From Cytobacillus pseudoceanisediminis (GTDB lineage Bacteria > Bacillota > Bacilli > Bacillales > Cytobacillaceae): DNA of 64,000 nt. The notes under the pieces were generated by a model. The model was not told where the DNA came from. It saw nothing but the letters and a program-made list of their open reading frames with translations, and did no database searches. Made by a program: the position numbers and the translations under genes. Location of the stretch: positions 2,418,001 to 2,482,000 of the forward strand of contig NZ_CP097349.1 of NCBI RefSeq assembly GCF_023516215.1. The letters are read 5' to 3'. This document shows positions 3,646 through 62,682 of the stretch, piece after piece. Positions within the stretch are counted from its first letter, which is position 1. Each line of letters begins with the position of its first letter.

Positions 3646-5468
3646 TCACATTGCATCAAGCATATTGAATTGTGCTTTTACCAAATGATAATATTCACCT
3701 TTTGCATTCATTAATTCTTCATGATTTCCTTTTTCTAAAATATTTCCATGATCAAGCACAAAGATTTGATCGGATTCACGGATTGTGGATAGCCTATGGG
3801 CAATAATAATTGCCGTTCTTCCCTTTAAGAGTGTTTTTAAAGCCTGCTGGATTTTGACCTCTGTCTCAGTGTCAATACTGGCAGTAGCTTCATCTAGTAT
3901 AAGAATACGAGGGTCTGCAAGTAAAGCACGGGCAAAGGAGAGGAGTTGCCTCTCACCCACCGATAATATATTTCCTCTTTCCTCCACTTCAGTCTCGTAT
4001 CCCTTTGAAAGTTTTGCAATAAACCCATGTGCACCAACGGCTTTGGCTGCTTCCACTACTTCTTCATCAGTTGCATCAGGTCTGCCAAAACGGATGTTAT
4101 CATAGATTGTTCCGGAAAATATGAAAGTGTCCTGCAGCACCACACTGATTTGCTTGCGCAAACTTGATAAAGATACATCCTTCAGGTCATAGCCATCTAT
4201 TTTTACAGAACCTCCCGAAGGATCATAAAAGCGGCTGATTAAATTTGCTATGGTCGTTTTACCTGATCCTGTATGCCCCACAAGCGCCGCGGTTTGCCCT
4301 GCTTTTATCTCAAGGCAAACCCCATTTAAGGCTGTTCTTTTTTCATCATAGGAAAATGTGACATTCTCAAATTCAATCTTCCCTTTTATCTCCTGTAAAT
4401 GAAATGCATCGTTCCTTTCTGATACGATTGGTTTCTCATCAAGAAACTCAAAGATTCGTTCAGAGGAAGCCATTCCCATGAGAAGCTGGTTATAAACCAT
4501 TCCAAGACGGGAAATAGGCTCCCAGAACATCCCTAAATAAAAGGCAAAAGAAACAAATACACCGATTGAGATTGACCCATCCTGAATCAGATGTGCCCCA
4601 AACCAAATCAGTACAGCGGTACCCAGGGCATTGGTCAATTCAACCAGCGGCCTGAACATTGCATTTTTCTGAGATGCATTTCTCCAGCTTTCAAAGTTCT
4701 CAGTATTCACACCATCAAAGAATGCCATATTCTCTTTTTCCTGTGTAAAAGACTGGGTAATCCTTATCCCCTGAATGCTTTCATTTAAGTGAGAATTCAA
4801 TTTGGATTGTTTTAACCGGACCGTTTGCCACGATCTGCGGATATTTCTGCGCAAGCTGGTCGAGATAAAAAACATGATGGGCAAAATGACCATGATTGCC
4901 AGAGTCAGTTCTGGGCTTAGTGTAAATAAAATAATAAAAATCCCTGCCAGCATAATCAGATCCATCAGCAGATTTATGACCCCATTGGTAAACAGCTCCT
5001 GAAGCGAATTTATGTCATTCATAATCCTTACCAGTATGGATCCTGCTGAACGCTGATCAAAAAAACGATGCGAAAGCGTCTGTACGTGTGTAAATAAATG
5101 TTTCCGAAGATCATAAATTACACTTTGGCCAAGCTTATTCATCCATTTTATCCTGTAATAGTTTGCAGCATATGAAATGGTATAGAGTACTGCAATCACT
5201 GAAACCAGAATGGCGAGCAGCCTGCCGTCCTTTTCAATCAAAGCTTTATCTAACGTATACACACCGATTAAGATGGGAATTATAAGCCTGACTGCTGTAT
5301 TTATTAATACCATAATAATTGAGAGCGGAAGTAAATTTTTTCTGTATGGCTCCATATAACTGAATAAGCGCAGCATTTGCTTCCAGTTAAAAGGCTTCTC
5401 AATAATTTCGTCGGCTGAGTATTGAAATCTATTTAACACATTTTCATTTTTTGTTTTATTTTTTTCAA
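3646..5468 (-). CDS. ABC exporter half-transporter, subunit 2 (catalytic Walker B Glu present); start region frame-disturbed
   Basis: About 607 aa: ABC transmembrane domain with six predicted helices, then a nucleotide-binding domain with Walker A GHTGSGKTT, Q-loop region VVLQDTFIFSGT, signature LSVGERQ (a departure from LSGGQ), Walker B ILILDEATASID and H-loop AHRLST. The stop of subunit 1 (TAG at 5480-5482) directly overlaps AGGAGG, and 7 bases later comes a TTG at 5468-5466. That TTG is one base out of frame with this ORF, and an A7 run (plus-strand T7, 5459-5465) sits right after it. One extra A would give a 607-aa protein starting MKKNKTKNENVLN, which is a usual length. As given, the frame stays open upstream to 5574 without a good site. 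Resembles YknV/YheH-type multidrug ABC exporters. Confidence 0.85.
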
Positions 5469-5479
5469 GGAGGCACCTC

Positions 5480-7234
5480 CTAGCCTGCATTTGATTGGAG
5501 AACCTTATCGCGGTCCTGATATTGAATATCGTAAATCCGCTGATATGGGCCATTATTTTTAAGAAGCTTTTCATGTGTTCCCCGTTCTGCCACTCTCCCG
5601 TTCTCTAGTACAAGTATTTCATCTGCATGCTTCAGGGAAGAAATCCGGTGGGCAATGATAAAGGTAGTTCGATCAGCCATTACTTCTTTCAAGGCTTTTT
5701 GTATTCTGAATTCTGTTTCCATATCCACAGCACTTGTTGCATCATCCAATACTAAAATACTGGGATCTGCACAGATGGCCCTTGCTATCGCAATCCTTTG
5801 CTTCTGGCCGCCTGAAAGCCCCATGCCCCTTTCGCCAAGAACGGTATCGTATTGATCAGGAAGCTCCATGATAAATTCATGTGCCTGTGCACGTTTGGCA
5901 GCTTCAATGATTTCCTCCATAGTGGATTCAGGCTTTCCGAATGCAATATTTGCTTTAATCGAAGAAGAAAACAAAAAGGATTCCTGGAGAACAAAGCCGA
6001 TATTTCTTCTCAGAGATTGAAGAGAGTATTCCTGCACATTTACACCATCTATAATCACATGACCTTCAACTGGCTCATAAAATCTTGTCATAAGCTGTGT
6101 TAAGCTCGTTTTTCCTGATCCTGTCGAGCCTATTAACCCAATTACCTTTCCTGGCTCAGCATGAAAAGAGATGTTGGATAAAGCGTCATTATCATCCTGG
6201 GTATATTTCAGCGTAACATTGCGAAATTCCACCTCACCCAGCAAACGTTCTGCTTTAACACATGATTCTATATCCTCAATTTCATTATCTGCCTCAAGGA
6301 TCTCAATAAGCCGCTCTCCGGAAGCTTTGGACTGAGAAAAGAGATTAACGATGAATCCAAGGTTCATAATAGGCCACATAATATACCAGAGAAGGCTGTA
6401 AAAAGCGACAAGCTCCCCTGGCTTCAGACTGCCAGCCATAACAAGATAACCTCCGTAAGCCAGGAGCAATACAACACTTAAATTGCCCAGAAACTCCATT
6501 AAAGGAAAATACTTAGCCCAAATATCCGATGTAAAGAGATATTTATCTTTATAGTCACTGTTAGAGTCATTGAATTTATTTATCTCAAAATCTTCCCGTG
6601 ATAATGACTTCACTGTATTAATTCCGCTTATATTCTCCTGAACTTTTGTATTCAGCCGTCCGAATGATTTGCGGATGCTCCGGAATGCCGGATGCACAGC
6701 TTTATCGAATTTAAAGGTGACTACCGCAAGAAAAGGCAGCGTAATAAGAGTGACAATCGCCAGTGGAATAGAATAATAAAACATGACCGAAACACTGATA
6801 AAGATCAGTAAAACAAAACGTATGAGTTCAGAAAATCCGAATGAAAGAAAAAAACGGAACCCCTCAACATCAGCAGTAAGCCGAGACATTAAATCGCCTG
6901 TTTTTGCATTGTCATAATATCGAAACGGCAAGAACTGCAGCTTTTCATAAAGTACATTTCTAAGTTTATAGACCGATGTGATCCCAAACAAATCACCAGT
7001 GTACTGATGGATATATGTCGCTGCCCCTTTTACACCCATTATGGCAATGAAGCCTAAAGCCAAATAAGGTATCCACCCATAATTTCCCCCAATGACAACC
7101 TCATCAATTGTCAGCTGAAGGATCATTGGATACACAACCGTAATCGCTGTCACAATAAACAGAAAGAATATGGACCAGAGAAAGTAATGTTTATATGGCC
7201 AGTAATATTGCTTTAACTTTTTAAATGTTTCCAT
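5480..7234 (-). CDS. ABC exporter half-transporter, subunit 1 (degenerate catalytic site)
   Basis: 584 aa with an N-terminal six-helix ABC membrane domain (to about residue 310) and a C-terminal NBD: Walker A GSTGSGKTS (near residue 370), signature LSGGQKQ, Walker B ILVLDDATSAVD and H-loop AHRISS. The catalytic Glu after Walker B is Asp here, while the partner has Glu but an altered signature (LSVGE). This complementary pattern is known from heterodimeric exporters with one degenerate ATP site, so the two genes very likely encode one heterodimer at the cell membrane. Start ATG at 7234 chosen (GGGGG at 7-base spacing); an ATG two codons upstream is too close to the site. Substrate unknown; drug or lipid export is typical of the family. 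Confidence 0.9.
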   Translation of the reverse strand: METFKKLKQYYWPYKHYFLWSIFFLFIVTAITVVYPMILQLTIDEVVIGGNYGWIPYLALGFIAIMGVKGAATYIHQYTGDLFGITSVYKLRNVLYEKLQFLPFRYYDNAKTGDLMSRLTADVEGFRFFLSFGFSELIRFVLLIFISVSVMFYYSIPLAIVTLITLPFLAVVTFKFDKAVHPAFRSIRKSFGRLNTKVQENISGINTVKSLSREDFEINKFNDSNSDYKDKYLFTSDIWAKYFPLMEFLGNLSVVLLLAYGGYLVMAGSLKPGELVAFYSLLWYIMWPIMNLGFIVNLFSQSKASGERLIEILEADNEIEDIESCVKAERLLGEVEFRNVTLKYTQDDNDALSNISFHAEPGKVIGLIGSTGSGKTSLTQLMTRFYEPVEGHVIIDGVNVQEYSLQSLRRNIGFVLQESFLFSSSIKANIAFGKPESTMEEIIEAAKRAQAHEFIMELPDQYDTVLGERGMGLSGGQKQRIAIARAICADPSILVLDDATSAVDMETEFRIQKALKEVMADRTTFIIAHRISSLKHADEILVLENGRVAERGTHEKLLKNNGPYQRIYDIQYQDRDKVLQSNAG

Positions 7235-7571
7235 CTGCATGCCCCCTTTAATTTGCGGAAAAATTAGAAAAGTTAGAACGTAATATTAAATATATCGAGT
7301 TTCGAAGTATTTTTCCACCCCTTTTTGTTTGATTTTTCCACTTTTTTTAAGCTTATCTTCTTAATGAGTCTATTCAAACTCCTAATCTTTATTAATACCC
7401 TTTGAAATCGCTAAAAGGCTTTCGATCTAAAATCCTGCATATCAGTAATTTAGTTTTTCACATCCAGCCAGTATATAGAGCTGCCCGAATGATAGAAAGG
7501 CTAACCGTTTGCATATAAAGTGCTGTTGCGATAAAATGATGACTTTAATCATACTGAAAGGAAGCGTTAGA

Positions 7572-11636: not shown

Positions 11637-13159
11637 TTAATCGGCAGCTTCCTTTTCATGCTTTGGCAGAGCAATTACCAGTAAGAAACTTATAACAGCA
11701 AATAATAGTACCGCATAATACACTGAATGAAGTGAAATGGTGAGACCATTTTGCAGGATGTCCTTCACTCCCGTATTCAGGCTGTTTCTCGCTTCTTCAT
11801 TTAAAAGTACATTTGCTGAATCTAAAGATAGGCTGGAATCTATGCCTTCACCATTATTCTGTATATATGATTTTATCTGGCTGTTCAGAATCCCGCCCAG
11901 CAAGGCTGCTCCTATAGTGTTGCCAAGATTTCTCATAAACATATTGGCAGCAGTAGCTATTCCTCTTTGCTTCCATTCCACTGTACTCTGAATGGATACA
12001 ATAAAAGCAGTGCTAGTTAATCCCATGCCGGCCCCGACCAGAAAGCTTCCAGCCGCCGCCCATACAGGTCCTGCTTCAGGAGTGAGTGTGACAAATAATA
12101 TGCTCCCTGCAATTAAGAATACTCCCCCTATTACAGAGGTGCTTCTAAAACCAATTTTCAAAAGAAGCTTGCCTGCAGCTGCAGAAGCTATTGGCCAACC
12201 TATCGACATGGTCGTAAGTGTAAAACCTGCAACAATCGGCGACCTTTCCATCACACCCTGGACAAATGCCGGCAGAAAACTGGAAATCCCTATCAGCATC
12301 ACACCAGTTGTCAGTGAAGCTAAATTAGCAATTAAAATCGGTTTTTCCTTCCAAATATTAAAAGGCATCATCGGCTCTGCAGCTTTTTGTTCCTGCAGGA
12401 TAAATAAAATAAAGGAAATCACACTAACCGCTATAAGGCTGATTGCTTCGATGGAATTCCATGCCCAATTTGTTCCTCCCTCAACAAGCACAAACATCAG
12501 AGATGAGATGGAAACCGTTAATAGCACAGCCCCTGCATAATCGATCTGATGCTTTTTTCTTTCCACATTCTCATGAAGGAAGAGCCATAAGCCTGCTATA
12601 GCCATAATGCCAAGCGGAATGTTCACCCAAAAAACATATCGCCAGCTGACGAATTCAACTAGAAGCCCTCCTATTGCAGGACCCATTATGGCTGAAATAC
12701 CCCATACGCTTGATAAATAACCCTGAACCTGTGCCCTTTCCTCTTTTGTATAGATATCCCCGACTATGGTGGTTGCTATCGGCATGACTGCTCCAGCTCC
12801 AACCCCTGGATTAATCGGAAAATGATCAGTGCTGTCATCGATTCAGCAAAACCGCATAAAATGGAACCAATTAAAAATATGATAATCCCGAATGTCAAAA
12901 CGGGCTTCCGCCCAAATAAGTCTGAGAGCTTGCCATAAATTAAAACAGTCACAGCATTCATTAACAGATAAGCTGAAAACACCCAGCTATATAAAGCAAA
13001 TCCGCCTAAATCCCCTACAATGGCAGGCATTGCGGTTGAAACAATGGTTGCCTCTATAGCTCCCATAAACATGGCAAGCATAACTGAAGCAAGCACAAAA
13101 GGCTTTTTCGTAACTTTTCTCTTTCCTTCCGGCATTTTTTTATGTAAAGTCTGACTCAA
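11637..13159 (-). pseudogene. MFS multidrug exporter, DHA2/EmrB-QacA type (14 TM), frameshifted
   Basis: Two overlapping frames together encode one about 507-aa 14-helix MFS transporter. The upstream part ends RLIQGL then runs into a nonsense tail (ELEQSCR); shifting frame restores GAGAVMPIATTIVGD, the continuation expected of motif C-region DHA2 proteins. The break lies at a G4 run (plus-strand C4, 12803-12806) where one extra G restores the frame. Start is probably the TTG at 13157-13159 behind GGAGGGG (MSQTLHKKMPEGKRK). Members export cationic drugs and dyes using the proton gradient. Everything else is intact, so an assembly error is more likely than a real pseudogene. Confidence 0.85.
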
Positions 13160-13246
13160 GCATTTCCCCTCCAAAATGAATAAAAACATGAATAACGCCT
13201 GCAAGTAGCGGAAATAAATACACCGGTACTCTCATCATTGAAAATA

Positions 13247-19512: not shown

Positions 19513-20277
19513 TTAAAATGGAAATTGATTCAGCCACTGTCCTCCATCCATAGTGATGCACTCCCCATTAATATAACCTGCATGCTCAGAGAAAAGGAAG
19601 AATGCCAATTCTGCGATTTCTTCCGGCTTACCGAGCCTGCCAAGGGGCACACTTTGGAGTGTCCTGTTTGCAGCTTCTTCTGATTCCCAAAGCCTGTCAG
19701 CCCCTCCTGTCCTTTCAATCGGACCTGGGGCTATTGCATTCACTCTAATTCCGTATTTTCTTCCCCATTCTACAGCCAAGGTTCTTGTCATGGATAATAC
19801 ACCTGCTTTTGCTGCTGCCGAGTGTATAACACCCGCTCCAGCATCCCATGCATATGTAGCCACCATATTAATGATGCTTCCCTTAACTCCTTTTTCAATC
19901 CAGTGTTTACCGACTTCACTCGAACAATAAAAGGTTCCATTCAAGACAATATTAATAACAGAATTCCATCCATTTGCACTCAAGCTCTCTGCAGGGCATA
20001 TAAAATTTCCCGCTGCATTATTAACAAGGAAATCAACTTGTCCAAATACATTTAGTGTTTCGTTGAGCATATGTTTAACATGTTCAATTTCACGGACATC
20101 CATTTGAATTGTCAAAACTTGACCCTGGAAGGTTTGAATTTCAGCTTTTGCTGTCTCGAGGCGTTCCGGATTCCTTCCTGTTATCACCACATTCGCTCCG
20201 GCTTCAGCAAACCTCTTTGCCATATATTTTCCCATACCGCTGGAACCGCCAGTAACAATGACTGTTTTATTCTTCAT
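19513..20277 (-). CDS. fadH: 2,4-dienoyl-CoA reductase (SDR family)
   Basis: 254 aa SDR. Cofactor motif TGGSSGMGKYMA (about residues 8-19), NNAAGNF, and SAAAKAG where a Tyr-xxx-Lys would be expected: the catalytic Tyr is replaced (HSAAAKAG), as is typical of FadH/DECR-type dienoyl-CoA reductases. Also NAIAPGPIERTGG and C-terminal MDGGQWLN. Reduces dienoyl-CoA in degradation of unsaturated fatty acids. Matches B. subtilis FadH (YkuF) in length and location. Start ATG at 20277 (GAGAGG site); a longer frame to 20307 would run through the palindrome at 20294-20313, so is rejected. Confidence 0.9.
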   Translation of the reverse strand: MKNKTVIVTGGSSGMGKYMAKRFAEAGANVVITGRNPERLETAKAEIQTFQGQVLTIQMDVREIEHVKHMLNETLNVFGQVDFLVNNAAGNFICPAESLSANGWNSVINIVLNGTFYCSSEVGKHWIEKGVKGSIINMVATYAWDAGAGVIHSAAAKAGVLSMTRTLAVEWGRKYGIRVNAIAPGPIERTGGADRLWESEEAANRTLQSVPLGRLGKPEEIAELAFFLFSEHAGYINGECITMDGGQWLNQFPF

Positions 20278-20293
20278 TCTAATTCCTCTCAAA

Positions 20294-20313
20294 AAATGAA
20301 TGATCATTCATTT
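20294..20313. promoter_or_regulatory. FadR-like palindromic operator upstream of fadH
   Basis: AAATGAATGATCATTCATTT is a perfect 20-bp palindrome just upstream of the fadH ribosome site. Half-sites TGAATGA/TCATTCA are those of the B. subtilis FadR box, but there they are separated by about 4 bases and here they abut. Probably the operator for a TetR-type fatty-acid regulator. Confidence 0.6.
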
Positions 20314-20523: not shown

Positions 20524-21397
20524 ATGCCGGAAAAAGTGTCCAGAAGATCTTTTTTAAAAAGAGCTCTCGGCTTTTTTGCTGCTGTTTTTGGTATTAGTGC
20601 AGGCGGCTATTATTATGCACGGGATATTGAGCCGCGGCTCTTGGAAATCACAAACTACAAAATTTCTGACAACGCTATTCCACAAGCGTTCCATAATAAA
20701 AAAATCATCCAATTCAGCGATACCCATTTAGGATTTCATTATGACCTGAAACAGCTTGAAAAATTGATTGAAAAGATAAACAGCTTGAAGCCTGATATTG
20801 TCTTCTTTACAGGTGATCTGATGGATGAACCCAACAAATATAAAGAGGCAAACCAAATCGCCCCCTCCTGAAAAGGATTCAGGCGCCGCTTGGAAGGTTT
20901 GCTATTTATGGAAACCATGATCACGGGGGCTATGGTTCTGATATCTATAAATCTATTATGGAAGAATCCGGTTTATTCTTTTGCTGAATGAAAATCGGAA
21001 AATCGAGTTTTCCGGAAGCAGCATCCAGATTATCGGCATTGACGATGCCATGCTCGGCAAACCGGACATAAAGCTTGCCAGCGGAAGTCTGGACGATTCT
21101 TCCTATAACATTTTATTGTCCCATGCACCGGATTTAGCAGATGAAGCCTCAGCTTTCAACATCAATCTGCAGTTGAGCGGCCATAGTCATGGAGGACAAA
21201 TAAAACTGCCGTTCATTGGAGCGTTAGTTAAACCGCCGCATGCTGAAAGATACTATGAAGGCTTCTATGAAATCGGCAGCCAACGCCCTTTAACTCTTTA
21301 TGTAAACAGAGGGCTTGGTACAACCCGGCTGCCCTTCCGGTTTTTATCCAAACCTGAACTGACGGTATTTACCCTACAATCAAACAGCGGGAATTAA
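20524..21397 (+). pseudogene. ykuE: Tat-exported metallophosphoesterase YkuE, two frameshifts
   Basis: N-terminal twin-arginine signal SRRSFLKRALGFFAA, then calcineurin-like motifs in three frames: FSDTHLG and FTGDLMD in the first, YGNHDHG in the second, LSHAPDL and SGHSHGGQ in the third. The frame breaks at C5 (20861-20865) and at T3 (20972-20974); one added base at each site gives a continuous about 291-aa protein. B. subtilis YkuE is a known substrate of the TatAyCy translocase and associates with the wall. Start ATG at 20524 with a weak site. All metal ligands are preserved, so sequence error is the simplest explanation. Confidence 0.87.
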
Positions 21398-26163: not shown

Positions 26164-27478
26164 CTATTCAGGAATGCTGTCATCCTTAATTTTTGAATGA
26201 ACAAGCAGTCCAATTATAGTTAATATCATCAATGAACCTAAAGCAAGTCTGCTTGCCAGGTTTCCATAGCTGGCAAAGATCAAAGTAATGCTTCCATAAA
26301 TAACGGGTCCGATTATGGAAGATACTTTCCCTGAAAATGCAAACAAACCAAAAAACTGCCCTCTTTTATCTTCTGGAGTCAATTCCACAATATAAGTCCT
26401 TGTGGTAACCCACATGGACCCCAGAGCGACGCCAAACATGCTGCCCGCAATCCAAAACATGATTTCATTGACAGCCCCAACAGCAATTGCCAGAGCAACA
26501 AGAAGAAGGATCCCAACGTATTTAACCGCTTTGTTGGGCCCTTTCGCCTTGGTAATATATCCAAATACAAAAGAACCAATTATACTGGACACCGTTGAAG
26601 CAAGATATAGCAAAATGAATTGGCCAGTTGAAAAGCCGACAATGGTTTTTGCGTAAACAGCCATCATGGCAATCGTTGTGGCAATTGCATCATTTAAAAA
26701 AATAGGCAATCATGAAAGTGAAAATCGCCTTATAATGTTTCATATCTTTAAAGGTCTGCCAAATTTCCTTATAGCCTGATAAAAATTTTTGTTTTTCTTT
26801 TGCCTGGTAAGGCTTATCTTTTACAAAGAAAAACAGCGGCAAAGAAAACAGCAGAAATAATATGGCAGTTGGTATAAAAGATTCGTGAAAACCGTCATCT
26901 CCTACAAATAAATAAACTGTCAGCCCTACAAGGGTTCCGATATAGCCAACAGCCACTCCAAAGCCTGAAATCAGCGGTATATCCTGCTTTGTTCCCAAAT
27001 CGGAAATCATGGCATCGTAAAAAACCAGACTGGAATGGAAAAAACTTTGCAATAATAAAACATATAATAACGAGTGCAAGATAAACTGGAAGCCCAAATA
27101 TTTTCCCGCTAATCTGGCTTGATGCAAAAACCCCCATTAAAATGGTCGCCATTACAGTAATAAGCGTAAAGATTACTATATATTTCTTTTTCTTCCTGTC
27201 CTGTCTATCATAACCCCAAACAATGGAGAGAACAGGACAAGAAAAAAGCTTGCCAGCGCATTTGAATAAGAAATAAAGGTGCTCGCTATCTGATTCAAAA
27301 CTTCATTCTCTCCTATTACTTCCTGCAGGTAAAAAGGAAAGAAAATGGTATTAATATTTGAGGAAAAAATAGTATTCGCAAAATCGTAAAGTGCCCATGA
27401 TACAACGGGCAGTGTCATATACAGCCGCCAGGAATTGAAATTCCCCTGTTTCTGCAGCTCCGTTTTTTCTATTTCCAT
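26164..27478 (-). pseudogene. MFS transporter, UMF1/Atg22-like family, three frameshifts
   Basis: Three to four frames reassemble one about 438-aa, 12-helix protein: LPVVSWALYDFANTIFSSNI (typical YDFANSAF-type UMF1 opening), FHSSLVFYDAMISDL, GYIGTLVGL, then FLNDAIATTIAMMAVYA and MWVTTRTYIVELTP. Breaks are at plus-strand T5 27187-27191 (one base missing), A6 27039-27044 (one extra) and A7 26696-26702 (one extra). With those corrected the frame is continuous. Start ATG at 27478 (MEIEKTELQKQ) with AAGGAGCTGATGAC. Substrate unknown; the family is linked to amino acid or small-solute efflux. Confidence 0.85.
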
Positions 27479-31021: not shown

Positions 31022-31035
31022 CGAATCACTCAGTC

Positions 31036-31075
31036 AATAGCGCCATTTTCCTTTTTAGTAGGAATGGCGCTGTTT
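31036..31075 (+). terminator. Terminator after patA
   Basis: AGCGCCATTTTCC / GGAATGGCGCT stem followed by GTTTGTATATTC. Confidence 0.7.
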
Positions 31076-31105
31076 GTATATTCATTGCTTCTAATTTCAA
31101 TCAAA

Positions 31106-31133: not shown

Positions 31134-31141
31134 TATCACCC

Positions 31142-39063: not shown

Positions 39064-40256
39064 TGTATTGCCACTTCCTTCGCTTTCACTTGAAGCGGCC
39101 TCAATTCGGCTTCTTCATTAAGCAGTTGCAGTTCAAATAAAAATGCTCCTTTTCGGCTGATATTAGTTATTGCGCTGGAAGCCGCTGGATTCAATTCTCC
39201 TGCATGAAGGAAATAAGGCTGACTAGTCAAATGTCTTTCATAAAAGGAAAGCATTTTTTCATAAGGGTAAATAGAATAATGATTATCTACAACAGCCAGC
39301 ATTTCAAGCACCTTTTGCAGATGATCTTTTCCAGATGCAGCAGATATAAAATAAAAGGGAGTGCTGCCAGCAGTCCGGATATTTATACACATGGAAAAAG
39401 GGATATTTTCCTTAACACAAATATAGGCAATTTCTGCTGCGCTGCTGATGCGTTCTTCCAGTTGTGCAGATATTGAATGTCCAGCTGAAACATTAAGCGA
39501 AATATTCCAGCCTGTTTCCGCAGCTTTTTCAAAGACCTTTGTTTGCAAACTCTGTTTCCTCGCACTTGCCTTCCAATTGATCCGATTAAAACTATCAGAT
39601 GAAACATACTGCCTTGTTCCGGCTGGCGAAAAATGATCCTCAAAAAGTGAATAGGCGGAAAGAAAAGTGCCTGGGCGGTCTGTAAAGAGTGACAGGATAT
39701 TTTTAACTGGCAGACGACTTGGATAGACCAATGCATCCTGCAGCAGTTGAGCACGATATTCAAGAATGGTTTCTCCAAAACCTATAAAGTTAGGAATATA
39801 TAACTCCAATTTTCTTATTTTTGAAACTCCCCTTTTCCTTGCAGAAATGGGGATTGTTATTATTTTTCTTTCATTATGATTTAATGAAAAAGGGATAGAA
39901 AGCTCAAATTTCCCCAGCCTGGGCTCCAGATTTTGATCCACCGGACAAATACAATCGTCAAATAAAATCCTTAATTCTCCTTTTAAAATGGGAAGCCCTT
40001 TATTATCAAATTCCAAAATCCATTTTGCTTCTTGTCCGGCAAACAATTTGTATCTGACCTTCGTGTTTTGCAGACTCAGCTTTTCCCCCAGGTGCTTCAT
40101 ATAATATGTATTGGCAGATATTATAAGCAGAAAAAGGATTGATGCCAGAAATACTTCCCATGATTTTAAATAAAAGCTTGCTATTAATAAAAATACGGAG
40201 AATACACTTGAAAGGGACAAATACCCGTCTTCAGCATGATACTTTTTCCACTCCAT
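39060..40256 (-). CDS. DUF58 (vWA-like) protein, YeaD-type
   Basis: 398 aa. Two N-terminal membrane helices (about 15-55), a beta-rich middle, and the DUF58 signature YVSSDSFNRINWKASARKQS (about 235-255). Works with a MoxR AAA+ ATPase as presumed chaperone/assembly pair; the B. subtilis counterpart operon is yeaC-yeaD-yebA. Start ATG 40256 chosen (AGGTG site); a GTG 12 bases upstream overlaps moxR. Ends inside the start of the next gene. Confidence 0.85.
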   Translation of the reverse strand: MEWKKYHAEDGYLSLSSVFSVFLLIASFYLKSWEVFLASILFLLIISANTYYMKHLGEKLSLQNTKVRYKLFAGQEAKWILEFDNKGLPILKGELRILFDDCICPVDQNLEPRLGKFELSIPFSLNHNERKIITIPISARKRGVSKIRKLELYIPNFIGFGETILEYRAQLLQDALVYPSRLPVKNILSLFTDRPGTFLSAYSLFEDHFSPAGTRQYVSSDSFNRINWKASARKQSLQTKVFEKAAETGWNISLNVSAGHSISAQLEERISSAAEIAYICVKENIPFSMCINIRTAGSTPFYFISAASGKDHLQKVLEMLAVVDNHYSIYPYEKMLSFYERHLTSQPYFLHAGELNPAASSAITNISRKGAFLFELQLLNEEAELRPLQVKAKEVAIQ

Positions 40257-40257
40257 A

Positions 40258-41196
40258 CTAGAGAGCACCTGACTCTACAGGAACTGGCACAGATTCCAGC
40301 ACTTCTTTCAGAACCGACTCAGGGCTTTTTGTCATAGAAGCTTCAGTGGAAAGGAAAATCCTATGACCAAGCACAAATGGAACCATTTCTTTAATATCAT
40401 TAGGTATCACATAGTTTCTTCCCTCCATAAGCGCTTTGCCTTGGGAAGCTTTCATTAAGGCAAGCATTCCTCTGGGACTTACCCCCAATACAATATCCGC
40501 ATGTTCACGTGTCTTCCTTACAATATCCAGCAAATAAGCTTCAACAGGCTCATTTAGAATAATTTTGCCGGCATCCTTCTTTAAATTAATGATTTGATCT
40601 AAGATGAAAATGGCATTGACTTCCGAAGGAGCGGCACCGCTTCGATACATTTGAAGCATCGCCTTTTCCTCTTCCCTGCTAGGATAATCCATTTTAAGTT
40701 TCATAAAAAAACGGTCAAGCTGAGCAACAGGTAGCGGAAATGTCCCCTGCTGAGATTCAGCCGGATTCTGTGTAGCTATAACCATAAAAGGTGGGTCAAG
40801 TCTAATTGTGTGTCCATCAATGGTGACCTGGCGCTCCTCCATAACTTCGAGAAGACTTGACTGCGTTCTTGGTGCTGCACGATTAATTTCATCAGCAAGT
40901 ACAACATTCGAGATAATTGGCCCAGGATGAAATTCAAATTCCTGATTTTTCGGATTGAAGAAACGTATGCCCGTGACATCACTCGGCAAAACATCCGGTG
41001 TAAATTGAATGCGTGAGAAATCCCCATTAATAGTGCGGGCAAATGCTTTGGCAAGCATTGTTTTTCCAGTTCCAGGCACACTTTCCAATAAGATATGGCC
41101 ATTGAATATTAAGGAAATGGCCATCAATTCAATTTCCAGGTCTTTCCCTGATATTACTTTCCCAATTTCTGTTTTAAGCTTGTCCATATATTTCAT
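40258..41196 (-). CDS. MoxR-family AAA+ ATPase (YeaC-type)
   Basis: 312 aa. Walker A ESVPGTGKTMLAKA (about 37-50), Walker B VVLADEINRAAPRTQSSLLE, sensor 1 ATQNPAE, Arg-finger/sensor 2 region GVSPRGMLAL. First gene of the operon with DUF58 and membrane protein. MoxR ATPases act as chaperones in maturation of protein complexes; the client here is unknown. Start ATG 41196 behind CAGGAGGGCAAAA; frame open upstream to 41220. Confidence 0.92.
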   Translation of the reverse strand: MKYMDKLKTEIGKVISGKDLEIELMAISLIFNGHILLESVPGTGKTMLAKAFARTINGDFSRIQFTPDVLPSDVTGIRFFNPKNQEFEFHPGPIISNVVLADEINRAAPRTQSSLLEVMEERQVTIDGHTIRLDPPFMVIATQNPAESQQGTFPLPVAQLDRFFMKLKMDYPSREEEKAMLQMYRSGAAPSEVNAIFILDQIINLKKDAGKIILNEPVEAYLLDIVRKTREHADIVLGVSPRGMLALMKASQGKALMEGRNYVIPNDIKEMVPFVLGHRIFLSTEASMTKSPESVLKEVLESVPVPVESGAL

Positions 41197-41377
41197 TTTT
41201 GCCCTCCTGTTCACTTCCATGCTGCTCTCTGCGTTTTAGATTGACTGGTATAATTTTACTAAAAAATATTATTATTTACAATTATCTGATAGTTCGCCTG
41301 ACAAAAAGAAAAACGCATGAATAATAAATCCAATACGCTAATTCCTGACTAATCAGCTTATAAAGTTTTCAGTTTGT

Positions 41378-41655
41378 TCATACGAAAATTAAAATTCCGG
41401 CAGCAGTAATAGCGGCTCCAATAGCAGTACCAGGAAGAAAGGCATTAATCTCCGTTACCAGGACCAAGGATGATTGGAAGCTCTATATAATAAAGCCAGA
41501 AATGCCACAAGTAAACCTATATGGACATGGACAGGCGTTAATAGGTATGAATGAGTACTTGACATACAATACCCAAGCAAAATTCCCACCGCAAATTAAA
41601 CGGATGAAATCATAATCATAGTAATTCCCACTAGAATCACTCGCTCTAATTGTTC
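41378..41655 (-). pseudogene. Decayed remnant of a small heme-copper-oxidase-like membrane protein
   Basis: Minus-strand sequence reads VILVGITMIMISSV-stop-FAVGILLGYCMSSTHS, then LLTPVHVHIGLLVAFLALLY, and after a one-base shift near 41490 SFQSSLVLVTEINAFLPGTA, GAAITAAGILIFV and stop. The LGxxMSxTHSYxLTPVHVHIxLL pattern recalls the TPVHAHxNLxGWV motif of short cytochrome-c-oxidase-like Bacillus membrane proteins. An in-frame stop, a frameshift and loss of the middle make it a real remnant. Rest of the gap (41220-41787) shows nothing else. Confidence 0.5.
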
Positions 41656-41787
41656 TAAAGCATTTAAAGGATATGAGCCTGTTCGTGTTTATAACTTATT
41701 TATCATTTTTCACAGTAAATTTACAAAGAACTCACCGCGATTTAACGAGGCTATTTTACAATGTCTTTAAGACAGGAGGCGAGAATA

Positions 41788-44790: not shown

Positions 44791-45473
44791 ATGAAATTCA
44801 TGGCGAAATTTATGTTAATTCTGGTTTATTTGCTGTTATCCTGGCAGGCTGCGGCACGTCTCAGAATGATTCCGGCAATGGATCAGATCCTGGGCAAAAT
44901 GAAGAAGAAACAGCTTCAGATGGACAGGATGGACAAGAGCAAACTGAAGAACAGGATCCAGCAGAAGAGGGCACTGTGGATGAAGGACAGAGCGTAATCA
45001 GAATCCTTGAACAGAACATGACTTATACGGTTGAGGGTGAAGCCAAGGAAGAGACTGCCTTCCTGAAACATAGTGATAATCAGAATTATTCTATGTACGT
45101 TCTGCCCGCCTATGAACTAACTGCCGAGGAGCCTAATAAGGATGTTTTATACCTTTCAGAAAATGATCAGGTATTCATGCGTATTGAACTTCTTCCGAAT
45201 GATGCAGATTGGAACATGATCGAAGAAAACACAAAAGCACAATTAGGAGCTGTTAGCGAAAATGTGCAGACAGCTGATGCTCCTTCAGATGATTTTTACA
45301 AAGATGCTAATGTTATGAAGGCTGAAGGAAACGGCGAGAAGGTTTCAGCCTATCTAGTGAAAAACGAAGATCTTTCACTGAAGCTTACCCTATTCAATAA
45401 GGAAGAAGCTGATCATGAAGAGGCTTTCCTTCAGATGGCGAAAACCATTATGAAAGAGGAGCCGCAAAAATAA
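44791..45473 (+). pseudogene. Predicted lipoprotein with acidic linker, frameshifted in the signal peptide
   Basis: The ATG frame gives a signal-like MKFMAKFMLILVYLLLS; after a one-base shift at CC 44840-44841 the other frame reads LAGCGTSQNDSGNGSD, a lipobox and Asp/Glu/Gln-rich linker, then the 165-aa folded part (VIRILEQNMTYTVEGEAKEE ...). One more C joins the parts into about 227 aa. Start ATG 44791 with GGGAGG at long spacing. Membrane-anchored lipoprotein of unknown function. Confidence 0.75.
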
Positions 45474-51268: not shown

Positions 51269-51405
51269 TCCCTTTTCCTTTTAATTAGTAGCGTATACAT
51301 AAATTCAATTCTCAATCATTATAGAAAACAGGAAGAAAGCTGTCAATTTAACACATCCGGATCATTTGCCCGAAACAACCTCCCAATTGTGATTAAGAGT
51401 TGGAA

Positions 51406-52943
51406 TTACCTTTTTCTTTTCCAAAAATAGTCTGCAATCAATTCGGTCATATCGGTTAAAATCTCTTTCACCACTGGCTTATCCTTGAACATGTTGTAGC
51501 CTCCCCGCCTGCAGCGCGGTAATTGTTCATTACTACATGATACTCTTCATCTTCCCTGATTGGATGCCCTTTATACAAAACCTTTGTAATCCGGCTGCCC
51601 TTTTGTCGTGAAACATCTATTTTATACTCAATACCTTCCCACATATCGTAATTATAATGCTGTGGCTTTGGATTTGAAAAATCAGGATTCACTATAATTT
51701 TTCCGTCACTGTTCAATTCAAAATAAGCTGCAGACCGCTCCAATGCATCTTTAATGTCCTTTCCTGCAACTCTGAGGACACATAATGAATTTGGATAAAT
51801 ATAGTTAGAAACAATTTCTCTCATCGTTACTTTAGACTTGAATCCTGGTGCCCCCTCATGAAATAAGGCAGTGCAGGAAATATCAGCACCTGAGGCTTCC
51901 ATCTGCACTTTATTAATAAATTCAATCAGCGGATGCTCCCCTGTACGTGCCTCAAATATATCATCAATCAGCATATCACCATCAATTTCACCGATCTCCG
52001 TATCCAGCCATTTCTGGGTTTTGGATTCATAATACCCAGCCAGCTGCAGAACCTCATTATCAGACGGTATTCCGTCGGGATAGATTAACGCAGAGTGTTT
52101 ATCATCAATCAGCCAATCATTATGTTTCTTTCTGAATTTAACGGTGACCTTTGCAAGCGCTTGACCATTAAATCCCGGCTGAACAACAGCCACACCATTT
52201 ACTTGTTCTCCTTCAATAAAACGGTGCTGATGCCCGGTAATCAGAACATCGATTCCAGGAACTTCTGTACAGATCCGGTATGCTTCATTTTCTCCTGTTT
52301 GTTCTTCCGTCTCTTCACCAGTTCTGATATCCTTTTCAAAGCCGCCATGATAAGAGACAATAATCACATCCGGCTTTTCTTCCTCCTGAATATATGAAAC
52401 CCACCTTTTTAAGCTGATCACCGCAGATTCAAAAACAAGATGTTCAATATGCTGCCTTTTCTCCCAATTGGGAATATACTGGGTTGTAACACCTATAACT
52501 GCTGCTTTCAAGCCATTTGGGAAGGATTTTATTTTATAGGGAAGCCCGAAATACGTTTCTTTTGTTGAATTAAATAATATATTGGCTGACAGCCATGGGA
52601 AATTGGATTCACTGACAGCTCTTGCAAGTGTGTTCTTTCCATAGTTGAATTCATGGTTTCCGATTACAGCTGCATCGTATTCAAGTTCATTTAATATTTG
52701 AATCATGGGATTTTTTTGGTTATTTAAGTATCTGGAATAATAATAAGTTAGAGGAGTTCCCTGGATCAGATCCCCGTTATCAATAAGTATAGAGATCTCA
52801 GATTGTTCCTTTTCTTTCTTTATTATTGCTGCAAGCTTGCCCAGCCCATGACCAGCATGCTCACCAGTTCCATAATAATATGGATAAACATGTCCATGGA
52901 CATCACTTGTAGCCAAAACCGTGAGAAAAACTTCTGATTTCAT
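51406..52943 (-). pseudogene. Secreted/cytoplasmic bifunctional metallophosphatase/5'-nucleotidase, frameshifted at C-terminus
   Basis: About 512 aa when corrected. N-terminal metallophosphoesterase domain (ATSDVHGHVYP, DNGDLIQGTP, IGNHEFNYG, SYHGGFEKD, TGHQHRF) and C-terminal 5'-nucleotidase substrate domain (ending VVMNNYRAAGG). At G4 (plus C4, 51503-51506) the frame goes to a short false tail; one more G gives GGGYNMFKDKPVVKEIL and a stop at 51406. ATG 52943 behind AAGGAGGGG. No signal peptide seen, so probably cytoplasmic. Hydrolyses nucleotides or UDP-sugars in the family. Confidence 0.87.
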
Positions 52944-53073
52944 CAAACCCCTCCTTACATATAAAATATCATTCCTTTGTTAGAAATAAACCTCTTTTAA
53001 CACAAAATGGTATAATATTGATAATGTCAGTTAGATATGAATAAATTAACCTAATTATGCTGGAGTTAACCTG

Positions 53074-54574
53074 ATGAAAAGTCGAAAACGAAATTTACTA
53101 CTATATTTAATCGCAGTAATTATTCCCACTTTGGCCGGCAGCATCTTTTTCTTTATGGATTCTGTTAAACAAAATGATGAGGAAAGGCTGGAAGAAGCAA
53201 AATGGATTGGCTCCATACACCAAAGAAGCTGGGACCAGTTTATTTCCGAAACTGTGACCACACTTGATATGTTATCACTGACTGCTGGAAGTGCTGACAC
53301 TCCCTCTGATAAACTGGAGCCTCTGCTCCAAAAGCCAATCAGCTGGATCCGCGATATGGCGGAATTTACCTTCTTAATCCCAGCGGAAAGGTTCTTACAG
53401 GGTCCAATCAATTCTTAGCGAACTCCGATTTATCTAATAAGAAATATCTTAAAGAGGTTTCGCGCACGAAAGATATTGTAATCTCTAACTCCCCTGAAAC
53501 ACTAACCAATGGGCAAACAGTCGTTGGGATAGGAAAACCCGTGTTCAATGACAATGGAGATGTAATCTCTATTATTGTGGCACATATGAGGGTGGATTAC
53601 GTACAAAATATCATGAGACTTCTTACTCCAGAAGCAAGACTTTCTGTCCTTAATTCTGAAAGGGAAACGATTATGGATATCAACATGAATGGTGACTCAT
53701 CATTTTCCAGCCAGAATAGCATCTCAATTCCAATTGACAGGCTTCCCTGGAGTGTAAAAGTAGAATTGCCGCCAAGAGATATGCTGGCAATTGTCAAAGA
53801 TGCTTTTAAGGCTATCCTTGTATTAATGATTATAAGCCATATTCTATTTCTCTTTATTAAGTATTTAAGGCTTAAAAAGCAGAATGAAGAGGAAAAAAGG
53901 AAAATGAGCTCCAAAAACTGGAACTGGTGGGTACTCTGGCTGCCAGCACAGCCCATGAAATCAGGAACCCTTTAACAGGAATAAAAGGTCTTATACAGCT
54001 ATTAAGTGAAAAATATACGAATACACATGACCAGTATTACTTTTCAGTTATAAATGATGAGATCAGCAGAATTAATGAAATTGTAAGTGAATTTTTAATT
54101 CTGGGTAAACCTGCAGCTCAAAAGATGGAAACCCTGGATTTGAGAAACATCATAAAGGAATTGGAACCGTTGATATTCTCCGAAGCCAATTTACACAATG
54201 TCACTTTTGAATCTGCTATTTCAGATGAACCTGTCATGGTCGAATGTACGAAAGACCAGATGAAACAGGTTATCCTGAATTTAACGAAAAACGCTTTTGA
54301 ATCGATGGAGGGCGGAGGAAAGCTGACAATTAAACTAAATAAAATGCATTCTAAGTGTCAGCTTAAAATTGCGGACACAGGTTCAGGCATCTCTGAAGAT
54401 GAAATTGAAAAGATTTTCCATCCATTCTACACTTCAAAGGAAACGGGCACGGGCCTTGGCCTCGTAGTCTGCAGGCGCATTCTGCATTCTTTCGGCGGTG
54501 AAATTTTTATTACAAGCAAAGAAACTAAAGGAACGCATGTAGATATTTTTCTGCCCATCAAAAACGACGCATAA
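53074..54574 (+). pseudogene. kinD: Membrane sensor histidine kinase, KinD-like, two frameshifts
   Basis: Corrected product about 500 aa: TM1 (about 7-27), an extracytoplasmic Cache-like sensor domain, TM2 (ILVLMIISHILFLFIKYL), HisKA with STAHEIRNPLTGIKG, then HATPase_c with N-box ILNLTKNAFESM, DTGSGIS and GTGLGLVV. Frame breaks at GG 53361-53362 and A5 53913-53917; one base added at each restores GGIYLLNPSG and SSKKLELVGTLAASTAHEIR. Position beside mhqR matches B. subtilis kinD, a phosphorelay kinase feeding Spo0F. Start ATG 53074, TGGAG site. Confidence 0.8.
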
Positions 54575-57017: not shown

Positions 57018-57163
57018 AAGGATATAGATTATTTTTATTAAAATTTTCTAAAAATTTTAATAATTGTGTGCAATCTTCTTCTTTTTTGCCATATAATAAA
57101 GGTAAGATATTAGCTCTCTTTGGCGCAGCTAAATACCCTGTAAAATGTTAGGAGGGATTAAAT

Positions 57164-57460
57164 ATGCATCTGCCAAACTACTTTGATTTTTATCAAAAAT
57201 GCCTTATTCCTGCAAATGGAGCTGATACATTCCTTCCGGCCGGGCAAACCCATTGGCTAATTGCTCTGGAAGGACAGCTTAAGGAACAGGAAAAAGAATA
57301 TTACCTCTGGAAAGTAACCTTATATCCATCCAATTCAGAAGGAAGTTTTATATGGAATAAGGCGCTTTATTCTTCATCTCTGTACGAATGCATCCATAAA
57401 GCTTTTGAACATGCTAAAGAACTTGAAGCCAATGTAAAGGACTCCCAGTTCAATTTTTAA
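57164..57460 (+). CDS. Hypothetical protein (98 aa)
   Basis: Starts MHLPNYFDFYQKCLIPANGA; mixed alpha/beta with WLIALEGQLKEQEKEYYLWK and a Cys at position 13 and near the end (ECIHKAFEHAKEL). ATG 57164 behind TTAGGAGGGATTAAAT. The family is not recognised. Lies alone between the Fsr-like gene and a 467-base gap. Confidence 0.75.
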   Translation: MHLPNYFDFYQKCLIPANGADTFLPAGQTHWLIALEGQLKEQEKEYYLWKVTLYPSNSEGSFIWNKALYSSSLYECIHKAFEHAKELEANVKDSQFNF

Positions 57461-57927
57461 AGAGACAAGAGAAAATCAGCTAACCTCAAAATCCATTCCC
57501 CTATGCGTTACTCTTTTTTTACCCTCGAATGTGAAATAACATACATATAGGTAATTTCTACTTTTAAACAAAATCCCAAAAAAGTGAATTCTTAATTCAG
57601 ATCAAAAAAAGAGCCTAGACTTCTCTAAGCTCTCCAGATTATAGGGGGTCAACTATAATAGTCCGACCACATTTAGTTTAACAAATCCTGCCTAAAAAAT
57701 TAAGATACTAAAGTACTATTACTTAAAAGCTTTAACGCGGTAATTTATAATAAAAAAAACAGAATGATATGTATGCTGCAGGATTAATAGTTTTGATATA
57801 TGTTGTTAACAATTTGTTAATATTTCTTAACTATAATATAAATGTACCGAAAGATAAAACCTTTTTCATTACCCCCTTTTCAAACCGGCCAAATGCGGCC
57901 GGTTTTTGTATGAAATAGGGGTTAACT
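57461..57927. other. 467-base stretch without a recognised gene
   Basis: Very A/T-rich. Minus-strand terminator-like hairpin AGAGCTTAGA GAAG TCTAGGCTCT + T7 at 57604-57633; a palindrome TTAACAATTTGTTAA (57806-57820) close to a TATAAT (57832-57837); hairpin with plus-strand T-tract at 57883-57908. A short transcript of about 70 bases from the TATAAT to that hairpin is possible, but no -35 is clear. Confidence 0.35.
57883..57908. terminator. Hairpin downstream of fixX
   Basis: AACCGGCC AAATGC GGCCGGTT, perfect 8-bp stem; T5 on the plus side, TTTGAAAAGG on the minus side. Confidence 0.7.
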
Positions 57928-58212
57928 TTATGCAAGTCTGAATACTATACCATGGCCGCCTTTTGGGTATTCCCATTTAATATTCTGATATGGGCATCCA
58001 ATCCTGCAGCTGCCGCACTCATGGCATCCTTCATAACCCACCTGCATTCTCAATCCTTCCCACTTATACACCTCAGCCGGGCAGAAAATAGTGCATATTT
58101 TATCGGGGCATTTTGTCATACAGATATCATGATCCAATACGGTAAGATGTGATTTGGTGTCTGCCTTAAAACGAACTAAATATTGCTTTTCTTCGATCGT
58201 TTTCGTTGACAT
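57928..58212 (-). CDS. fixX: Ferredoxin-like protein FixX
   Basis: 94 aa; two cysteine clusters CPDKICTIFCPAEVY and CHECGSCRIGCPYQ typical of FixX/2[4Fe-4S]-type ferredoxin-like proteins. ATG 58212 overlaps the fixC stop by one base (TAATG), indicating coupling. Works with FixC as the ubiquinone/menaquinone-side of the FixABCX complex. Last gene of the operon. Confidence 0.92.
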   Translation of the reverse strand: MSTKTIEEKQYLVRFKADTKSHLTVLDHDICMTKCPDKICTIFCPAEVYKWEGLRMQVGYEGCHECGSCRIGCPYQNIKWEYPKGGHGIVFRLA

Positions 58213-59506
58213 TATTTCACCGCCTTCCATGCCCTGTACATGTCTTGAAGCACACGAATGGTCCCGCGTTCACTGGTAAAGCTCTTCATAATTTCTTTTT
58301 GCTTTTCTTTCTTAGGAGTTCCATCAACTGTAAAAAATTTGCTCGCTGCCCTGTTAAGCATCGGAACATATTCTTTAAAATACTGAGGGTAGTGTTCAAA
58401 CGTGTGAGTTGCATCTTTATATTTTTCCAGGTCTTTTATAATAAAGCTTTGATAAAGTGTTTCCCTGTACTGATTCAAGCTTGTTTCGCTGAAGTCACCC
58501 CGTTTTTTGGCATCAATGATGGTTTCTGCAGCCATTGTTCCGGAAGCCATTGCCATATTGGAGCCTTCGCGGTGTATGGCATTAACCAGCTGTGCAGCAT
58601 CACCTGCAAGAAGGACACCATCCCCAGCCACTTTAGGCACTGAATGGTAGCCCCCTTCAGGAATCAAGTGAGCCAGATACTCGGCAGATTCTCCTCCTTC
58701 TATTAAGGGTCTTACCATAGGGTGTGTTTTTAAATAATCCAGCAGGTCATAAGGCTTAAGCTTCGCCTTAATCATACTTGACAGCGTGGTTCCCACACCA
58801 ATATTAATACTATCTTTATTGGTGTAAATAAAGGCAGTTCCCAGATTGCCTTTCGTGGAGTCCCCGAATATTTCAATCGTACAGCCCTGGTTGTCTTCCA
58901 GGTTAAAGCGGTCATTAATTTTGTCTTTAGAAAGATTAATGACTTCCATTACCGTCAGTGCCACTTCATCAGGGCGAAATTCTTTATGGTAGCCCAGCTG
59001 TTTTGCCAGCAGTGAATTTACACCATCTGCCAAAACCACTACATCTGCATATACCTCCCCATCCGGCCGGTCAGTTCTTACACCAACCACTTTTCCATTT
59101 TCAGTCAGGCACTCAAGTACGACTGTTTCATTTATTAATAGAACGCCCTGTTCAACCCCTTTTTTGCAAACCATTGGTCAAATGGCGCCCGGAGTACTGT
59201 AAAATTATTATATGGTTCCTTCCCCCACTCAAGACCTTTATAGCCAAAACTCACTGTCGATTCTTTATCCATCATCCAAAACCGCTGCTCTACGACAGGC
59301 CGCTCCAGCGGTGCTTCTTTCCAAAACTCTGGAATGATTTCCTCCATTTGCTTACGGTATAAAACTCCACCCATTACATTTTTGCTGCCGGGATATTCTC
59401 CTCTTTCAATTTGAAGGACTTTTAGACCGTTTTTGGCGCATGTGTAAGCACAGGAAGTTCCTGCAGGCCCTGCCCCCACCACGATGACATCAAACTTTTC
59501 AGACAT
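58212..59506 (-). pseudogene. fixC: FixC flavoprotein dehydrogenase, frameshifted
   Basis: About 431 aa corrected. N-terminal FAD motif VVGAGPAGTSCAYTC, Fix/ETF-QO motifs (GVLYRKQMEEI), ADGVNSLLA and GDAAQLVNAIHREGSN. The upstream part reads FDQWFAKKG then a false tail; one extra G at G4 (plus C4, 59156-59159) gives KKGVEQGVLLINETVV. ETF-quinone oxidoreductase-like subunit of FixABCX. ATG 59506 (MSEKFDVIVVG), GGGTGAAATGA site. Confidence 0.9.
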
Positions 59507-59509
59507 AAC

Positions 59510-60523
59510 TCATTTCACCCCTCTTTCCCTTGCTTCCTTTAACTCTTTAATCAGCTTCGGCACAATTTCAAGTGCATCACCCACGATTCCGTAGGTTGCT
59601 ACATCAAATATAGGTGCGTCTGGATCCTTGTTAATCGCAATAATGAACTCTGAATTCTTCATGCCTACGACATGCTGGATTGCCCCTGAAATCCCAATAG
59701 CAAAATAGACCTTTGGGGTAATGGTTTCTCCGGTCTGCCCTACCTGCTGTTCATGCGGCAGCCATCCTGCCTCCACTACATCCCTTGTGCCCCCTACAGT
59801 TGCTCCAATTGCATCAGCCAGGTCATGGATCAGCTGGAAATTCTGAAAATCCCCCATTCCTTTTCCGCCCGCAACAACAACATGCGCATCTGCTAAATTC
59901 ACTTTTTTTGTGACATCTTTCACAATTTTAATTACCTTTGTGCGCATATCATCTTCACTTAGGGTAATCGCTTCTTCTATAACCTCGCCCTGTCTATCTG
60001 GATCTGGCTCCAAGGCTTTCATAACCTTAGGACGGACAGTAGCCATCTGCGGCCGGTGCTTTTTACAAAGGATGGTTGCCATTATATTTCCCCCAAACGC
60101 CGGGCGGCTAGCTTCAAGCAGCCTTTTATCCACTTCGACATCCAGCATGGTTGTATCAGCAGTCAATCCAGTGCTAAGATCTGTAGCAACAGCACTGGCC
60201 AAATCTTTACCATTGGAAGTGGCCCCATAGAGAAATATCTCAGGTTTATACTTTTCTGCAAGATTGATTACTGCCTTCATATAAGACTCCGTCCGATAAT
60301 CTTTCATCACTTCATGGTCAATAACATATACCTGATCAGCTCCATAAGCGATCACTTCCTGGCATAAAGACTTTATTTCATATCCAAGCAGAACACCGGA
60401 AAGAGGCACATCCAGCTTATCTGCCAGCTTTCTGCCTGCACCGAGCAATTCAAGGGAAACCCCTTCTATTTTCCCATCATTTTGTTCTATGAATACCCAC
60501 ACTCCCCGGTACTCATCCATCAT
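59510..60523 (-). CDS. fixB: Electron transfer flavoprotein alpha-type subunit FixB
   Basis: 337 aa. ETF alpha with the C-terminal FAD domain: [15 protein letters not shown]-like [44 protein letters not shown]. Pairs with FixA in the bifurcating flavoprotein. ATG 60523 ([11 protein letters not shown]) behind AGGGGGATTTAC; frame open to 60547. Overlaps nothing; 23 bases after fixA. Confidence 0.93.
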
Positions 60524-61569: not shown

Positions 61570-61612
61570 CTTCCCTATTATATGTTCAATCTATGTGCTT
61601 GGAATTTTAAAA

Positions 61613-62012: not shown

Positions 62013-62111
62013 CATTCTGCTAAATTTATTATGTGGCATCAACGGGATTTGATAAAAAAATCGCAAGACCATAATATGTTAAAAAAATATCCAATTGTTA
62101 TAGCAGGAAAA

Positions 62112-62143
62112 TAAAAACCCAATGCCGGGGGCAATGGGTGGGT
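62112..62143 (-). terminator. Terminator downstream of mtnD
   Basis: CCCATTGCC / GGCATTGGG stem followed by TTTTTATTTT on the minus strand. Confidence 0.85.
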
Positions 62144-62150
62144 CATTAAA

Positions 62151-62682
62151 TTATTGATGAACTTCCTTTTTTCATAAATTGGCACCCATCCTTCTGCGGT
62201 AACAAAAATCCGGATGGCTACTACTTTTCGATCCTCCTGAAGAGTAAAATAATGACGGATGTTTTCGGGTACGGATATTAAATCGCCAGGATTCAGGAAT
62301 ACTTCAAAGAACTCTCCATCTTTTCCTTGTATAATAAAGACTCCATGACCGCTGACAATAAATCTCACCTCATCATCTGTATGATGATGCTCCTGCTGGA
62401 AATTCTGAAGAAGCTGTTCTAAATTCGGCGTATTCTCTGAAAGGGAAATTACATCCTGTGCCTTATATCCTCTTCGATCAGAAATATCCTTAATTTCTTC
62501 AGCAAATGCAGCCAGAATTTCTTGTTTCTCATCATCGGAAAGTAAATATTTTTCCTGCAGATTTTCAGGCAATTTATCTATTGCCCATTGCTCATAGATA
62601 ACCTCCTGCTTTTCCAGAAAAGCAGCAACCTCTTCCTGATTCCTAATTTCTTTTTTGAATTTTTCAGTACGATATATGCCAA
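62151..62682 (-). pseudogene. mtnD: Acireductone dioxygenase MtnD, two frameshifts
   Basis: Corrected length 177 aa, as for MtnD. Metal-binding QEHHHTDDEVRFIVSGHG and LISVPENIRHYFT are intact. The start side reads TTG 62680-62682 (MAYI) and shifts frame within three codons to RTEKFKKEIRNQEEV; one base is missing near 62671. The end reads WVPIYEK then a false tail; one extra A at A6 (plus T6 62167-62172) gives KKEVHQ and stop. Uses Fe or Ni; catalyses the last-but-one step of methionine salvage. Third of mtnX-mtnB-mtnD. Confidence 0.88.

Follow-up and report, generated by a model that had tools for sequence, protein, structure and literature searches.

Numerous protein-coding genes in a 64,000-nucleotide stretch of the Cytobacillus pseudoceanisediminis chromosome sequence (contig NZ_CP097349.1; G000:C1:2418001-2482000, hereafter the window) change reading frame at the loss of one or two bases. 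Are these genes decaying, does the strain shorten its single-base runs at an unusual rate, or is the deposited sequence at fault? The window belongs to a 5.69-Mb assembly in two contigs (G000). Our sampling of it covered the window, a further 560 kb of the first contig and 120 kb of the second, along with the loci flanking search hits. Judged by comparison with related genomes, the frame breaks are almost certainly consensus errors of the assembly that leave single-base runs one base short, or rarely two; the living strain would have the longer runs and intact genes. A reading made from the window sequence by itself (the sequence-only reading) had arrived at the same diagnosis, homopolymer error and not independent pseudogenisation, and the comparisons described below support it while correcting several of its details.

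Frame breaks in the window coincide with shortened single-base runs

Searching 36 genomes of the genus yielded one, G039, that is labelled as the same species, is collinear with the window and is 99.7% identical to it. Over an alignment of 63,993 positions, the two sequences differ by 94 substitutions and 44 insertions or deletions (indels). The window is one or two bases short at 39 of these indels; the other five are gains. The sequence-only reading had listed 17 frame breaks, proposed a comparison with a close relative as a check, and named an orthologue carrying the same frameshift as the finding that would speak for a genuine lesion. All 17 breaks proved to be single-base runs that are shorter than in G039, each lying inside an open reading frame (ORF) of at least 100 amino acids (aa) that in G039 runs through the site uninterrupted, and none of the breaks is carried by G039. 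Nor was an orthologue with the same frameshift found in G039 or in G005 and G006, two genus-mates that are collinear with most of the window at about 94% nucleotide identity. Both genus-mates show the longer run at 16 of the 17 sites, and the remaining site (38870) lies within a segment absent from both. In G039, the affected run is five to nine bases long at 15 of the 17 sites.

The placement of the breaks held in part. Eleven of the 17 positions were exact, whereas six runs had been misidentified, one by 2 bp and five by 4–31 bp. The site assigned to a T3 run at 20972 is a G run at 20970, and that assigned to a C4 run at 59156 is the neighbouring T run, 4 bp away at 59160. The sites given as 44840, 53361, 53913 and 62671 are 17–31 bp off, the actual runs being at 44823, 53330, 53893 and 62651, and three of these four consist of another base than the one named. 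Two further statements had to be replaced. Fifteen sites had been said to need an added base and two, 26696 and 27039, a removed one. Instead, all 17 are shortfalls, these two being short by two bases relative to G039 and likewise to G005, G006 and the more distant genus-mates G001, G011 and G003, which share about 81–89% nucleotide identity with the window. Moreover, the estimate of about 17 breaks was too low, as the window has at least 21 shortfalls in ORFs. Each of the four that had been overlooked (20285, 51423, 57454 and 59518) also shows up in comparison to three or more of the more distant relatives G005, G006, G001, G011 and G003.

The window wholly contains 55 G039 ORFs that are 100 aa or longer and map over at least 95% of their length; 16 of them have a frame-changing indel. 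In a Clp-ATPase gene ending at 48923 the indel falls at the stop and produces no shift, which leaves 15 ORFs with 21 window-side shortfalls:

3646–5468, minus strand: ABC exporter gene; change at 5459, about 10 bp from the start codon, displacing only the start
11637–13204, minus strand: MFS transporter gene (family from the G005 copy); one break, 12803; whole in G039 and the relatives
19513–20311, minus strand: 266-aa ORF; break near the start, 20285
20524–21397, plus strand: calcineurin-like phosphoesterase gene; two breaks, 20861 and 20970
26164–27478, minus strand: MFS/Atg22-like transporter gene; three breaks, 26696, 27039 and 27187, all shortfalls
31030–31346, minus strand: 105-aa ORF; break near the start, 31308
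31395–32272, minus strand: 3-hydroxyisobutyrate-dehydrogenase-like gene; break near the end, 31469
38166–39063, minus strand: predicted membrane-protein-like ORF; break at 38870, in the segment absent from G005 and G006
44791–45473, plus strand: 227-aa ORF with no Pfam match; break near the start, 44823
51362–52946, minus strand: 5'-nucleotidase-family gene; two breaks near the end, 51423 and 51503
53074–54574, plus strand: sensor histidine kinase gene; two breaks, 53330 and 53893, and a further two-base difference at the end
57145–57483, plus strand: 112-aa ORF; break near the end, 57454, and another difference near the start, 57158
58212–59506, minus strand: FAD-dependent oxidoreductase gene; one break, 59160
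59499–60523, minus strand: electron-transfer flavoprotein alpha subunit gene; break near the end, 59518
62151–62691, minus strand: acireductone dioxygenase gene; breaks near both ends, 62167 and 62651

The other frame differences between the window and G039 lie at 38190 and at the gene ends 48922, 54573 and 57158. The difference at 38190 is probably a lesion of G039 itself, because the 324-aa ORF of the window matches G044 over residues 2–324 without a stop. The surrounding part of the window, 37870–41680, is missing from the otherwise collinear G005 and mostly from G006, while the gene at 38166–39063 is present in G039.

Frame changes exceed those between relatives and extend beyond the window

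How do these numbers compare to frame changes between other genomes of the genus? We used conserved ORFs of relatives and tracked the reading frame along DNA alignments. The minimum ORF length was 60 aa in the window tests based on the genus-mates and 100 aa in the tests with G039 and in those of longer segments, and ORFs had to map over at least 90% of their length, except in the G039 count given above. Because short frame runs were dropped (below 15 bp in the window test with the genus-mates, 20 bp in the 344-kb test with G039 and 30 bp in the segment tests), breaks at gene ends are under-counted in these figures. With G005 as reference, 18 of 58 genes change frame in the window (25 events), and with G006 this holds for 17 of 59 (24 events). 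In the controls between the relatives, only 1 of 80 genes (G006 followed into G005) and 4 of 75 (G005 into G006) do so. A coarser analysis by tblastn gave the same direction, with 6/59 and 7/59 multi-frame genes in the window compared to 0/79 and 0/75 between G005 and G006. When G001, G011 and G003 served as reference, 17/58, 22/60 and 19/58 window genes changed frame; this comparison is noisier, as 11 control pairs at a similar distance ranged from 6/77 to 15/77.

The excess is not restricted to the window. We analysed three segments of the first contig: segment A, 344 kb including the window; segment B, at 3.2–3.4 Mb; and segment C, at 3.98–4.06 Mb (G000:C1:3980001-4060000), the lysS-rpoB-ribosomal region. 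When the G039 ORFs of segment A are followed into G000, 76 of 266 undergo a frame change, and 97 of the 101 underlying events are net losses. Following G005 genes into G000, we counted frame changes in 78/250 genes of segment A, 34/107 of segment B and 13/74 of segment C, as compared to 12/217, 13/106 and 6/77 in the control of G005 against G006. The same G005 genes followed into G039 change frame in 17 of 250 cases in segment A.

Base loss rises with run length and ignores coding status

The tables of run lengths include only runs whose 4-bp flanks are identical across the compared genomes. Where G039 and G005 agree, coding runs of five, six, seven and eight bases are short in G000 at 6/583, 18/220, 15/60 and 4/8 places, respectively, and none is long, whereas shorter coding runs, of one to four bases, have lost a base at 2 of 100,296 places. 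G039, judged in the same way, does not depart at any coding run of five to eight bases (0/577, 0/202, 0/45 and 0/4; 0/828 in total). Likewise, no coding run of five or more bases is longer in G000 than in G039. The earlier statement that nearly all breaks lie in homopolymers is borne out by the coding DNA of the 344 kb, where, relative to G039, 0 of 117,405 single bases, 1 of 35,485 doublets and 2 of 9,901 triplets have lost a base, while runs of five to nine often have. The identity of the base matters as well: in all classes of DNA taken together, runs of six are short at 14 of 17 places when made of G or C and at 12 of 278 when made of A or T. Under such an error process, the chance of a shortfall would grow with the length of the run and, among runs of six, would be far greater for G/C than for A/T.

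The comparison with G005 and G006 gave the same length trend, with 45 of 882 coding runs of five to eight bases short in G000 (one more departs otherwise) and 0 of 836 departing in the relatives; the classification of losses against these two genomes covered 144 events, and 5 complex ones among them were kept unclassified. This comparison also suggested that a separate class of losses exists outside runs (11 of 83,298 coding single bases), a candidate that we rejected. Since the apparent outside-run losses vanish against G039, the bases concerned are between-species differences. Relatives at 94% identity can make some losses look as if they fell outside runs, and a same-species genome shows them in runs.

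Losses affect coding and noncoding DNA alike, with 43/871 and 14/224 runs of five to eight bases being short, respectively (Fisher p 0.40), and therefore there is no purifying selection on where they fall. If agreement with G005 is no longer demanded, noncoding runs show 13 one-base gains besides losses, the picture that genuine strain variation would give.

These figures bear on the possibility that the frame is genuinely broken at the runs and that slippage of the polymerase or the ribosome restores the proteins. The breaks occur mostly in runs of five to nine, where slippage could act, and insect endosymbionts offer a parallel, as they have run breaks in otherwise conserved genes that are rescued by transcriptional slippage. 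A rescued break should be conserved among close relatives, but the frame is open at these sites in G039 and the genus-mates, leaving no conserved slippery site. Moreover, noncoding runs are short equally often, a single gene can have up to three breaks, and six-base G/C runs are short at most of their places. Unlike the endosymbionts, G000 is a large free-living genome with breaks that are absent from the same species and with G/C runs being hit worst. The probability that slippage rescues these genes is vanishingly small.

Broken genes show no sign of relaxed selection against G039 and include genes essential in Bacillus

The simplest biological interpretation would be independent pseudogenisation, with genes decaying in this strain, and the sheer proportion of ORFs that have lost their frame, 15/55 in the window and 76/266 over 344 kb, would agree with it. 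Decaying genes should exhibit relaxed selection and nonsense substitutions. We thus compared the ratio of nonsynonymous to synonymous substitution rates (dN/dS) for genes of at least 120 aa, which in the comparison with G039 also had to be at least 97% identical. Relative to G039, dN/dS is alike in 71 broken genes (0.179) and 171 intact genes (0.166), and 83,088 codons contain no stop made by substitution. Decay on such a scale would have had little time to occur, given that 94 substitutions separate the two genomes over 64 kb, and noncoding runs lose bases as often as coding ones.

Base loss also reaches lysS and ispF, single-copy genes that are essential in Bacillus. lysS is split over two frames in G000 and whole in G039. 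In a family search, G000 alone of 31 genomes had no match over the cut-off, the single match of three others being partial but over it, and neither another lysyl-tRNA synthetase over the cut-off nor a class I enzyme was found in G000. The ispF match covers positions 1–143 of 155, as compared to 154 or 155 positions in all 30 other genomes, which places the shift near the gene end. ClpX-like and ClpB-like genes, as we tentatively name them, look interrupted as well. Against this background, pseudogenisation is extremely unlikely to account for the breaks. Assembly errors, by comparison, should increase with run length, be indifferent to coding status and essentiality, and not recur in an independent same-species genome, and this is the pattern observed.

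The rpoB-ribosomal stretch, at ~37.0–67.5 kb of segment C, has no frame break over about 30 kb. We considered that selection might spare rpoB, rpoC and the ribosomal genes and rejected this idea, as long runs are scarce there, with 1 short run being seen against 1.7 expected.

Several results weigh against assembly error as the explanation. Two of the 17 sites, 20970 and 44823, are runs of only three bases in G039. Segment B has the noisier control (13/106), and its broken genes have a higher dN/dS relative to G005 than its intact ones (0.157 vs 0.115), a slight difference in the direction that pseudogenisation would predict. Codons reading as stops against G005 number 13 in 82 broken and 6 in 151 intact genes of segment A, and 8 in broken and 3 in intact genes of segment B, so that the evidence against decay is weaker with this reference than with G039. 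Both these stops and the raised ratio in segment B may stem from frame changes or alignment slips. Two of the six 16S copies of G000 (loci L129–L134) are each missing a base from a short run; like the two three-base sites, they show that losses are not all confined to runs of at least five bases. Finally, a mismatch-repair gene, mutL, is itself split in G000, and a mutator strain would show the same.

Separately, the six 16S copies differ from one another at four substitution columns.

Near-equal substitution branches argue against a mutator

The state of the mismatch-repair genes raises the possibility that the strain is a genuine mutator with defective mutL, its runs being really shortened by slippage. 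mutL is split (G000:C1:2129464-2133757) and the mutS match is shortened (1–813 vs 1–839) in G000, whereas both genes are whole in G039, G005 and G006. Furthermore, losses are concentrated in runs and increase with run length, as do the indels of mismatch-repair mutators. Compared to G039, however, the mutL/mutS locus is one base short in a run of 7 and in a run of 6, with one 9-base difference besides, and the two lesions may well be further instances of the very type of event under scrutiny in the window.

A mismatch-repair defect is expected to lengthen the substitution branch, too. Polarisation by G005 and G006 assigns 354 substitutions to the branch of G000 and 313 to that of G039, with 97 left unresolved, and there is no transition excess (208 transitions and 146 transversions in G000, 199 and 114 in G039). 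One-base losses are nonetheless divided 141 to 7 between the G000 side, including cases with an ambiguous outgroup, and the G039 side, with 11 having no outgroup. The substitution branches are about equal, which therefore argues against a mutator. Mutators also differ from G000 in that here coding runs of five or more bases show no gains and that the essential lysS and ispF are affected. A true mutator is thus very unlikely. A composite version, in which a mutL-defective mutator has truly shortened many longer runs and slippage restores essential proteins such as lysyl-tRNA synthetase, appears extremely improbable.

Relation to known long-read assembly errors

Consensus error in the assembly, the explanation that we favour, has known counterparts, as long-read assemblies commonly retain gene-fragmenting homopolymer indels as a residual error. 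In the Kastor study, uncorrected example assemblies contain 23.3% pseudogenes, close to the 76/266 found here, and have deletions after long runs (PMC12007338). The Homopolish study describes uncorrected systematic nanopore errors as mainly homopolymer indels that shift reading frames (PMC8011154), and Polypolish belongs to the related literature on homopolymer-length error in long-read bacterial assemblies (PMC8812927). As in such assemblies, one-base deletions in runs shift the frames of many G000 genes at once. The one difference noticed is that these papers report insertions as well, whereas insertions are nearly absent here from coding DNA. Because of the loss pattern and the two-contig assembly, we infer a nanopore-like platform, and the cause would be a long-read assembly that was insufficiently polished.

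Most likely, then, the breaks reflect a matter of data quality, with no new biology behind them. About three in ten of the ORFs tested over 344 kb are out of frame, and lysS and ispF are hit elsewhere, which makes claims of gene loss or pathway absence based on this record unsafe. The warning of the sequence-only reading that automated annotation of the record will miscall many pseudogenes is plausible in this light.

The second contigs of the two same-species assemblies measure 343 kb in G000 and 387 kb in G039, and in each the one stretch searched has its matches in large plasmids from Cytobacillus oceanisediminis and C. firmus. One 20-kb stretch of the G039 contig is 100% identical to plasmid NZ_CP015507.1 of Cytobacillus oceanisediminis 2691 and to NZ_CP085393.1.

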